Origin: Betaproteobacteria bacterium
Lineage (GTDB): Bacteria; Pseudomonadota; Gammaproteobacteria; Burkholderiales; Methylophilaceae
Direction: 5' to 3'
Assembly (NCBI GenBank): GCA_016867975.1
Contig: VGIC01000003.1
Span: 1-64,000, forward strand
DNA length: 64,000 nt
Shown here: piece by piece, positions 12,037 to 52,341 of the stretch
How the letters are laid out: each line of letters starts with the position of its first letter
How positions within the stretch are numbered: position 1 is the first letter of the stretch
Position numbers and translations under genes: made by a program
The notes under the pieces: model-generated
Told to the model about the DNA's origin: nothing
Seen by the model: only the letters and a program-made list of their open reading frames with translations
The model's database searches: none

Positions 12037-12411
12037 TTATCTACGCTGACTGATGGTCTCAGCAATCAGCAGAATGACGGACACGATATTGGCCATCAGC
12101 GCGCCACCGGATAAAGAAACAATGTAAGTAATCAGGTCTGCGTCAGTCATTGTGCCAGCCAGTGTTGCCCACATGATAGCGGCCGCAATCAACTGTAAAT
12201 CAGCTGCTAGGCTGGTGGAGAGTAATATTGCCCCAACATGGGTGCGGTCGCCGAATTTCAACACGGTTGCGATCAGGCTGACGACGATTGCAGCGTACAA
12301 CTCATAAACATGGTGATGGTTAGGATTATCAATGTCACCGACAAAAAAACCAAAATTCAGTGTCATTGCCAGCACGATAAAAAAACCAAAGATTACTTTT
12401 TCCAGATTCAT
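12037..12411 (-). CDS. Small membrane protein, DUF6394-like
   Basis: A 124-aa protein with about four hydrophobic segments: VIFGFFIVLAMTLNFGFFVG, ELYAAIVVSLIATVLKFG, VGAILLSTSLAADLQLIAAA and a C-terminal helix. It resembles DUF6394 proteins, which I recall next to ion-channel genes; this assignment is from memory. The ATG at 12411 places start and hydrophobic segment as expected. It is first in a two-gene unit with the RCK channel and could be an accessory subunit (inference). Confidence 0.65.
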   Translation of the reverse strand: MNLEKVIFGFFIVLAMTLNFGFFVGDIDNPNHHHVYELYAAIVVSLIATVLKFGDRTHVGAILLSTSLAADLQLIAAAIMWATLAGTMTDADLITYIVSLSGGALMANIVSVILLIAETISQRR

Positions 12412-12507
12412 GTGTTTGCTCCAAACGGTGACCATTAACGGCGTTCAATGTCAATTAGCATAATAATTGCCTAATTACGGGTATTATACAAGCTACAAAT
12501 TTTGGTG

Positions 12508-12844
12508 TTAAGGAAGCACGGAACAAGTCTCCATGAACCACGTTGCAATAAATGAAGCGAAGCGTCATGCCAACAAATGGCAATTTGAGATGATTGCAAG
12601 GCGTGCGAGCAGAGCCTGCCCCCGAAAGTTTGAATCGGGGGGTGTAGTCATTCTACAAAGCCAAGGAGCACAACGAAGCAAGCGCGCAAATTTATTGCAA
12701 CCCTTATGGGCACAGGGTTTGCGGGCGGTCTGCTGTGTTAGACTTCTTGCGAAGGGAATGACCATTCGCTACAAAGTCTGCCGTACATCCCATCCCGCAA
12801 ACCTCATGTGCGTGGTCATGAGGACTTGTTCCGTGCTTCCTTAA
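12508..12844. mobile_element. 337-bp MITE-like element with perfect 22-bp terminal inverted repeats
   Basis: The left end (12508-12529) starts TTAAGGAAGCACGGAACAAG. Its exact reverse complement forms the right end (12823-12844), giving 22 of 22 matches. Imperfect pairing extends further inward (CCATGAACCACG against CGTGGTCATGAG). The interior holds no credible transposase, only a 103-codon frame of low-quality composition. This is the form of a non-autonomous MITE. A related, heavily deleted copy lies at 52264-52341. The ends read TTAA, so the target duplication could be TA or TTAA and cannot be separated from the repeat here. It ends 2 nt before the miaA start. Confidence 0.85.
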
Positions 12845-12846
12845 GT

Positions 12847-13812
12847 ATGCATCAACACCAATTACCGCCAGCGATTTTTTTGATGGGGCCGACTGCCAGT
12901 GGCAAGACAGGCCTTGCGGTTAAACTATACTCAGAGCTTCCATTGGACTCAAAGCTGTCGGTGGAGTTAATCAGTGTCGATTCTGCTTTGGTGTTTACCG
13001 AGATGAACATAGGCACTGCTAAGCCAGACAGCACAACCTTGGCGAATGCACCGCATCATTTAATCGATATTATTCCACCAACAGAAGCCTATTCTGCGGC
13101 GAATTTTAGAACGGACGCCTTACGTTTGATGGCTGATATCACGCAGCGCGGCAAGATCCCGCTGTTGGTGGGCGGCACCATGCTTTATTTCAAAGCGCTA
13201 CAGGATGGGTTGAGCAACTTGCCGGAAGCGAATCCTGCAATTCGCGAACAGATCGAGCACGAAGCTGCGCAGATAGGCTGGCCGGCGATGCATGCTAAGC
13301 TGGCTGTGGTTGATCCGCAAACGGCAGCACGCCTACAGCCTACGGATATGCAACGCATTGAACGGGCGCTGGAAGTTTACCAAATCAGCGGTAAAACGAT
13401 GACTGAATTACATCAGGCATCAACGGGGGAGGCGCTGCCATATCGTCTGTTGAAAATCGCTTTGCTCCCAGGTGACCGTCAAGTGCTGCATGCGCGAATT
13501 GCACAGCGGTTTGACCAAATGTTGGCAGACGGTTTTATTGATGAAGTGAAAGCGCTTAAAGCAAAATATCCGACACTGACACCTGATTCAACTGCTATGC
13601 GTTGTGTGGGCTATCGTCAGGCGTTAGAGCATCTGGCAGGAGCGTATGATTTAGCCGAACTCCGTGATAGAGGAATATTTGCCACACGGCAATTGGCAAA
13701 GCGACAGCTGACTTGGCTACGAGGAATGGATGATTTAGTCGAGGTGGATTGTCTAGATCCGGCCTTGCATGAAATGGTCAGGAATAAGATACTCGAGTTC
13801 ATGAGCGGGTGA
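12847..13812 (+). CDS. miaA: tRNA dimethylallyltransferase MiaA
   Basis: A 321-aa MiaA, which transfers a dimethylallyl group to A37 of UNN-reading tRNAs. It has the P-loop GPTASGKTG near residue 13, DSALVF...NIGTAKP (substrate loop), [12 protein letters not shown] and AMRCVGYRQ. The ATG at 12847 is the first that gives the usual short N-terminus; an in-frame GTG at 12808 lies inside the MITE. No Shine-Dalgarno is visible before the ATG, because the MITE right end occupies that place. Expression must rely on sequence supplied by the element. mutL and miaA are neighbours in many proteobacteria; here the channel genes and MITE separate them. Confidence 0.95.
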
Positions 13813-13857: not shown

Positions 13858-15048
13858 TTAATAGTTTTGGCGGATACGATGCGCGGCTTCGATACACTCA
13901 TCGTAAGAGGCTACCAGTGCCATGCGCACAAAATTCTTGCCTGGATTAATGCCGTGCGCATCACGCGCAAGAAAGCTTCCTGGCAGAACGGTAATGTTCA
14001 AATCACGGTGTAGTTGCACTGCAAATTCGGTATCTGAAACATTCTGATTTTTGATTTTGGCCCAAAGGTAGAACGCGGCGTCTGGTAAGGCTACATCAAG
14101 CACATCGGTAAGTAGTGGCGTTACATCCTTAAACTTTTGTGTGTATAGTTTCCGGTTTTCTATCACATGTTGTTCGTCGTTCCATGCGGCGACTGAGGCA
14201 GCCTGCACCGCAGGATTCATCGCACAGCCATGATAAGTGCGGTAGAGCGCAAAGGCTTCGATGATGCGCTCATCGCCTGCGACAAAGCCGGAGCGCATGC
14301 CTGGCACATTGGAACGTTTCGACAGTGAGCTGAACACCACTAGGTTCTTGTAATCACGGCCCAGTTGATAAGCCGCTTGTAAGGCACCTAGTGGCGGATT
14401 CGATTCGTCGAAGTAGATTTCTGAGTAGCACTCATCCGCCGCGATCACAAAGCCGTACTTGTCTGATAACTCAAAAATGGTTTGCCACTGTGCCAGGCTC
14501 ATGACTTTGCCAGAGGGGTTGCCAGGACTGCATACGTAAGCCAGTTGCGTTCTCGCTAACACTTCTTCCGGTACGCTACTAAAGTCCATTTCATGGTTGT
14601 TTTGTGGTAGCGTGTTGATAAAATGAGGCGTGGCGCCAGCCAAGAGTGCTGCACCTTCGTAGATCTGGTAGAAGGGGTTGGGCGAGATGATTACAGGGTT
14701 GCTTTTGCTTTTATCGATGATGACCTGTGCAAATGCAAATAAGGCTTCACGACTCCCTGTTACGGGTAGAATGGCTTTCTCAGGATTCAATGCTGGTATT
14801 GCATAGCGGCGTGAAATCCACTGGGAAATGGCATTGCGCAATTCGCCAGAGCCAATTGTAGTGGGGTAATTGGCCAGCCCAGCCAGATTGTCCACTAGCG
14901 CATCCTTGATCAATTGCGGGGTTGCGTGCTTAGGCTCTCCGATGGAAAGGTTGATCGGTTTGTAGTCGGGGTTGGGCGTGATACCTTTAAATAGGTCGCG
15001 TAGACGCTGAAAAGGGTATGGCTGCAATAGAGTCAGATTAGGATTCAT
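13858..15048 (-). CDS. dapC: Succinyldiaminopimelate aminotransferase (DapC-type, PLP class I/II)
   Basis: A 396-aa fold-type I aminotransferase. It has NLSIGEPKHATP near the start, YPTTIGSGELR, NPFYQIYEGAA, CSPGNPSGKVM, ADECYSEIYF, and SSLSKRSNVPGMRSGF with the PLP-binding lysine. This residue set matches the betaproteobacterial DapC group in the succinylase branch of lysine/meso-DAP synthesis. No other dap gene is near, so substrate choice rests on family resemblance. It is divergent from the EamA transporter gene with 26 nt between them. Confidence 0.85.
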   Translation of the reverse strand: MNPNLTLLQPYPFQRLRDLFKGITPNPDYKPINLSIGEPKHATPQLIKDALVDNLAGLANYPTTIGSGELRNAISQWISRRYAIPALNPEKAILPVTGSREALFAFAQVIIDKSKSNPVIISPNPFYQIYEGAALLAGATPHFINTLPQNNHEMDFSSVPEEVLARTQLAYVCSPGNPSGKVMSLAQWQTIFELSDKYGFVIAADECYSEIYFDESNPPLGALQAAYQLGRDYKNLVVFSSLSKRSNVPGMRSGFVAGDERIIEAFALYRTYHGCAMNPAVQAASVAAWNDEQHVIENRKLYTQKFKDVTPLLTDVLDVALPDAAFYLWAKIKNQNVSDTEFAVQLHRDLNITVLPGSFLARDAHGINPGKNFVRMALVASYDECIEAAHRIRQNY

Positions 15049-36980: not shown

Positions 36981-37165
36981 ATGCTTAATTCGAGATGCAA
37001 TGTCAGGCGCACGGAACACAGAAGCGAGAAAACCAACGTAGTGTTTCGGCGTAGGCTAATATCGCGAAGCGATGTTAAGCGTAGCGGCCAGAGCCACAGT
37101 ATGTGGTTATACGGCGAGGTTGCGAGTACCACGCAACGCAGCAGTGCGCTCAAAGTAAGTGTTTT
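36981..37165 (+). other. Structured spacer before rlmN, possible remnant or ncRNA
   Basis: Between the ndk terminator and rlmN lies ~250 nt without a supported gene. It holds three successive hairpins: GCTAATATCGC/GCGATGTTAAGC (37055-37080), CCACA-GTA-TGTGG (37094-37106) and GTTGCG/CGCAAC (37119-37137). A 67-codon frame crosses it but is Arg/Ser-rich and unconvincing. It could be an rlmN leader, a small RNA or a decayed repeat element. Confidence 0.45.
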
Positions 37166-52263: not shown

Positions 52264-52341
52264 TAAAGGAAGCGCGGAGTAAGTATCCATGAACCACGTT
52301 GCGATTGTTGCAGCCATGTGAATTATTCCGTGCTTTTTTAA
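52264..52341. mobile_element. Internally deleted MITE copy (78 bp) upstream of acnB
   Basis: The left part AAGGAAGCGCGGAGTAAGT with CCATGAACCACGTTGCG closely matches the first ~38 nt of the MITE at 12508. The right part TTCCGTGCTTTTTTAA is its degenerate terminal repeat. Only ~80 of 337 bp remain. Its position mirrors the miaA case, close in front of a start codon (acnB at 52228, minus strand). Confidence 0.75.

Follow-up and report, generated by a model that had tools for sequence, protein, structure and literature searches.

MITEs, a well-known kind of mobile DNA, are transposon relics that rely on the enzyme of another element. Bacterial type II MITEs share their ends with an insertion sequence (IS) and carry an unrelated interior; one that varies in size is Chunjie of Geobacter uraniireducens (PMC10969869). 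In the case of IS5, insertions prefer YTAR and typically come with a duplication of YTAR (PMC10359306). The Correia/NEMIS elements of Neisseria can be transcribed together with a neighbouring gene, and the helix formed by their terminal inverted repeats (TIRs) is cut by RNase III (PMC10969869; PMC2229807).

The element found directly before miaA in the stretch of DNA analyzed here ("the window," 64,000 nucleotides) compares with each of these systems in part. Like type II MITEs and Chunjie (to which it is likened by description), it is short, has TIRs and a duplication, varies in internal length, occurs also as partial and mini copies, and folds back on itself; unlike them, its family is low-copy and the parent IS is absent from the assembly. 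To IS5 (E. coli IS5A, IS5-group, NCBIfam NF033581) it is likened by its TIR, of which 14 of 18 positions are identical to the IS5A right end (GGAAGGTGCGAACAAGTC, K-12 record) and up to 17 of 18 to an intact IS5-group element described below, and by its 4-bp YTAR-type duplication. However, it lacks a transposase gene, measures 329 bp rather than ~1.2 kb, and has an interior without detectable relation to IS5. With Correia/NEMIS it has in common that it is a MITE that could be transcribed with the neighboring gene and is predicted to form a TIR helix, though the TIR, the target (TA in Correia/NEMIS) and the parent are different ones, and both the cleavage and the promoter are known from Neisseria, not from the miaA element. 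We consider it very probable that the locus represents an IS5-type MITE whose insertion at TTAA, a YTAR site, interrupted the short leader that separates the DUF6394–miaA promoter region from the miaA ATG (Table 1).

Table 1. Features of the miaA locus and a related miniature element, in window coordinates.
Feature	Position	Strand	Basis or remark
Divergent upstream gene, DUF6394 (PF19931)	12037..12435	-	Pfam
Intergenic block GCATAATAATTGCC..TATTATACAAGC	12458..12493	.	Same place in congeners with DUF6394–miaA; candidate -10 sites on both strands
TTAA target-site duplication, left copy	12508..12511	.	Its four bases also begin the -35-like hexamer TTAACA of the - strand
Left TIR GGAAGCACGGAACAAGTC	12512..12529	+	Repeat search, end search
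Element proper, 329 bp, without transposase gene	12512..12840	+	Terminal helix with two arms
Left arm	12542..12701	+	Closed by 12-bp inverted repeat 12542-12553 / 12690-12701
Extra 27 nt, hairpin CAGAGCCTGCCCCCGAAAGTTT	12609..12635	+	Missing in other copies of the element
Right arm	12716..12803	+	Closed by 10-bp inverted repeat GGTTTGCGGG / CCCGCAAACC
In-frame GTG, alternative start not supported	12808..12810	+	No Shine-Dalgarno pairing; ~25 kcal/mol to open
Right TIR	12823..12840	-	Repeat search, end search
TTAA target-site duplication, right copy	12841..12844	.	Direct reading
miaA	12847..13812	+	TIGR00174, 318 bits; 321 aa, intact; start codon ATG 12847 conserved
70-bp miniature of the family, with two degenerate ends	52268..52337	+	Predicted hairpin, z -5.1

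Direct reading of the sequence and a repeat search place a complete non-autonomous element, including its flanking duplication, at 12508-12844. Its inverted arms (12508-12536 / 12816-12844) are 29 nt long and 93% complementary, and their outermost 22 nt are perfect; by our own estimate, 64 kb of sequence should contain ~1e-6 perfect inverted pairs of 22 nt spaced within 400 nt. A preliminary description of this DNA took the 22 bp as the ends of the element. The perfect 22-bp match stands, but since TTAA is self-complementary, it is best read from the sequence as a perfect 18-bp TIR plus a 4-bp TTAA duplication, with TTAA taken as target site and not as part of the TIR because related elements have TTAG or TTTA on both sides. 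The left junction (12508-12529) is TTAA-GGAAGCACGGAACAAGTC and the right junction (12823-12844) is GACTTGTTCCGTGCTTCC-TTAA, followed by GT and the miaA ATG at 12847. The distance of 2 nt from the miaA start given earlier holds for the end of the duplication, whereas the element proper ends 6 nt before the ATG. Within the element, the longest frame (103 aa, stopping 2 nt before the miaA ATG) has no Pfam match to a transposase or other protein family, and an Rfam search of the element matched no family; perfect TIRs, TTAA on both sides and the lack of a transposase match in the longest frame all agree with the earlier view of a complete element without transposase. The predicted fold of the 329 bp is very stable (-152.6 kcal/mol as RNA, z -10; z -8.6 as DNA). 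Short length with TIRs, a target-site duplication, no transposase gene, several dispersed copies and presence or absence at orthologous sites place the element among MITEs.

Further copies emerged from a DNA search of the same genome (G000; 92.7% complete, 1.56 Mb in 44 contigs). At C1:90758-91037 lies a second full copy (272 bp, TTAA on both sides), which is 99% identical to the miaA copy over the last 205 bp and 96% over the first 46, and is predicted to fold like it; in the alignment, the main difference between the two is a pair of extra ~30-nt stretches in the left arm. The search also returned one partial copy in reverse orientation (C10:46230) and some weaker matches to the ends, and the genome holds a 105-bp miniature at C1:22561 together with solo ends, besides the miniature in the window (Table 1). 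At up to 3 mismatches, 10 sites match the 18-mer TIR (reversed control, 0). The genome-wide end search that had been proposed as a check thus yielded second full, partial, mini and solo-end copies. Because copy identity is high and the duplications are intact, the sequences indicate recent activity of the element family, consistent with the recent look that the insertion had been credited with. The alternative that an assembly artefact joined a repeat to miaA draws on the presence of repeated DNA in a draft assembly, yet it is extremely improbable: both full copies are embedded in large contigs (95.6 and 113 kb), and a mis-join would not create the perfect duplications on both sides and the differing internal lengths that these copies have.

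Among 61 genomes, clear relatives of the element were found only in G033, as two diverged copies at other loci, and G021 matched an extra 33-nt stretch only. The 27-nt hairpin at 12609-12635 is a nested repeat, and its motif CAGAGCCTGCCCYCGAA occurs eight times in this relative, G021. When 85,000 reference genomes were searched for the exact TIR next to YTAR, the one match was the G033 relative (HGW-Betaproteobacteria-22), and no autonomous parent with the exact 18-bp TIR was found among them. At miaA itself, a comparison with strains lacking the insertion had been suggested, and the element is absent in all of the ~29 congeners whose upstream region could be read; leaders vary from one congener to another, and the comparison shows absence, not the exact pre-insertion site. 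An empty site was found for an insertion in G033, where the copy on C2 starts at a TTAA containing an aminotransferase stop codon, and the aminotransferase orthologue in the window ends uninterrupted at 13858 (...CGCCAAAACTATTAACACCGC). TIR-like ends (≤2 mismatches) are present in 18/52 congeners, compared to 4 matches for the reversed control, and congeners carry paired short elements with similar ends and YTAR-like flanks. The flanks in related elements are TTAA, CTAG or TTAG, and some are divergent.

These comparisons bear on two outcomes that the preliminary description had named as speaking against its reading, a lack of other copies and conservation of the same 337 bp before miaA across distant relatives. 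Neither applies, given the further copies in the same genome, the diverged ones in G033, and the absence of the 337 bp in the congeners compared. They also leave it barely conceivable that the element is a conserved regulatory miaA leader, riboswitch-like or thermosensor-like, whose strong fold (z about -10) is its function: it is missing before miaA in all congeners compared, the same sequence stands at unrelated sites with TTAA duplications, no Rfam family matches it, and fold-back is expected of any MITE. While elements of this kind are well known, no prior description of this particular family was found in the literature, within a search of limited extent.

The link to IS5 is carried by the ends and the target. 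In genome G452, from another Burkholderiales family, L202:353-1518 is an intact IS5-group element of 1166 bp with TTTA on both sides, whose ends (GGAAGCACTGAACAAGTC and GGAAGCCCTGAACAAGTC) are 17/18 and 16/18 identical to the TIR. Its 318-aa transposase scores 331.8 bits with NCBIfam IS5 and is 54% identical to InsH of IS5. The miaA element has an IS5-like TIR and a 4-bp YTAR target (TTAA); descent of its interior from an IS5 transposase gene was not seen, the longest frame being without a Pfam match. As its interior could not be related to any transposase, the element is, as far as its sequence goes, IS5-type by its ends only, and a type II MITE that is not demonstrably a deletion derivative of IS5. 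A MITE of another transposase family would fit an interior unrelated to IS5 and a genome in which no transposase was found; however, ends so nearly identical to those of an intact IS5-group element (17/18 and 16/18), with YTAR-like duplications, make this very unlikely.

Neither an IS5-group transposase nor any other of PF01609 turned up when the same genome (92.7% complete assembly) was searched with PF01609 and InsH, so the check for an autonomous parent, which the preliminary description had also proposed, came back empty there. Multicopy IS are often lost from fragmented draft assemblies. Candidate parents in related genomes were rejected: in 12 congeners, most of them with many ends, 21 PF01609 loci had no matching ends, and among 187 genomes of the bacterial family the InsH relatives included one in G133 that is nearly a copy of E. 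coli IS5 and one in G121 that is 47% identical and TTAA-flanked but has less similar ends. The former (L135; G133:C13:148419-149393), flanked on either side by TTAG, is an IS5 whose product shares 97% identity with E. coli InsH, and reflects recent transfer or contamination.

A second group with similar ends, the 143-bp Type B elements (reference L128:800-942; G072:C156:13549-13691), resembles the miaA element in its TIR (16/18 identical), YTAR-like flanks and hairpin fold, but has an unrelated interior and is far more widespread. It was matched in 86 of the 187 family genomes, from 16 of 24 genera, in a search that scored about four candidates per genome, and the 86/187 therefore denotes presence, not copy number. 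An Rfam search of the 143-bp element gave no match. The genome of the window has copies at G000:C23:15535-15677, C4:47022-47145 and C12:36771-36894. In several genomes the core (positions 27-117) recurs without IS5-like ends (e.g., G007:C6:27740-27830, G024:C20:59475-59565), as if an independent repeat had gained IS5-like ends or the ends had decayed. Window positions 36991-37149 hold two short matches to this core (87% over 40 nt and 82% over 33 nt) and are probably a decayed copy, judging by these matches. Elsewhere in the genome, a solo element end (CTAG + GGAAGCACGGAACAAGTCCACATGACC) at L012:1500-1531 (G000:C15:10602-10631) fills the short rnfA–rnfB spacer and reaches the rnfB start codon. 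In 17 relatives this spacer is unrelated and rnfB starts one codon longer; the solo end may be the source of the rnfB leader and possibly of its first codons.

The preliminary description further held that the element replaces the promoter and ribosome site of miaA. The arrangement of DUF6394 and miaA is common to 15 genomes, with the motif TATTATACA present in 15/15 at ≤1 mismatch. Several of them share a more extended block, GCATAATAAT..TATTATACAAG, and in the window this conserved block (Table 1) is intact, 14 nt upstream of the TTAA duplication. More widely in the genus (L034-L060) the gene before miaA varies, being divergent DUF6394, mutL directly, a toxin-antitoxin-like pair, or others. 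A promoter scan gave a + strand candidate upstream of the element, TTAACG-18-CATAAT, whose 9/12 matches could be chance (0.7 sites expected), and a - strand candidate, TTAACA-17-TATAAT, the first hexamer of which includes the left TTAA. Inside 12508-12844 it found no + strand promoter-like site. We considered TTAACA as a conserved -35 of the divergent gene and rejected it, as TTAACA at the 17-nt spacing occurs in this genome only; we attach no meaning to its overlap with the duplication. Because the conserved block, which may act on either strand, is intact and no + strand site was found inside the element, the sequence argues that the leader is interrupted and the promoter region not replaced. 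That the element supplies a promoter now driving miaA, in the manner of Correia elements at some neisserial genes, is suggested by its position directly before the gene and by MITEs with known sigma-70 promoters (PMC10969869), but is rather unlikely in view of the intact block and of a scan whose two candidate sites are either upstream of the element or directed away from miaA.

Nor is the loss of a ribosome site supported. Congeners start MiaA at or near the residue matching ATG 12847, and in them, too, Shine-Dalgarno pairing upstream of the gene is nearly absent; in the window, a weak GGTG was nevertheless moved away from the ATG by the insertion. GTG 12808, in frame with miaA and earlier thought able to extend the protein, exists, and its frame is open into miaA; its use as a start finds no support (Table 1). 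Translation of a longer MiaA from this GTG or from TTG 12826, also within the element, has a parallel in the in-frame MITE fusions known in other bacteria (PMC2229807), yet must be judged quite improbable, given the GTG's lack of pairing and high opening cost, the weak Shine-Dalgarno pairing (-2.2) and 16 kcal/mol opening cost of the TTG, and the correspondence of congener starts to ATG 12847. For the ATG, the predicted opening cost (computed over -18 to +13, at equilibrium, ignoring coupling and proteins) is 31.4 kcal/mol with the whole element in the RNA, 8.3 kcal/mol when the RNA starts within 60-120 nt, and ~9-11 kcal/mol with the flanks joined, compared to 2-8 in congeners. If transcribed, the element is predicted to fold very stably, with the miaA start hidden in the fold.

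We propose that an IS5-group (DDE) transposase acted in trans on the two IS5-like ends, cutting and joining them, that it came from an IS5-group element which this assembly does not show, and that insertion into the TTAA (YTAR) of the miaA leader would have led to the 4-bp duplication. Most probably, transcription still begins at the upstream promoter region and runs through the element; the read-through transcript would then fold into an extended helix whose end lies 6 nt before the ATG, which is predicted to lower miaA translation. Should RNase III, or a transcription start inside the element, remove the helix, this effect would be relieved. A stronger version, in which miaA is translated conditionally, its start hidden in the TIR helix (~31 kcal/mol) until exposed by RNase III or by translation of the 103-aa frame, appears unlikely on these predictions; if true, a mobile element would act as a post-transcriptional switch on miaA, a global tRNA-modification gene.

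Although real and recent, the insertion is an ordinary one of modest interest, with an effect on miaA that is predicted only. It provides a clean example of a housekeeping gene whose leader was recently interrupted by a mobile element and corrects the idea of a replaced promoter. The family to which it belongs adds to the MITEs of a betaproteobacterial group and is tied to IS5 by its ends, and the widespread 143-bp element with similar ends may matter more than the miaA case.
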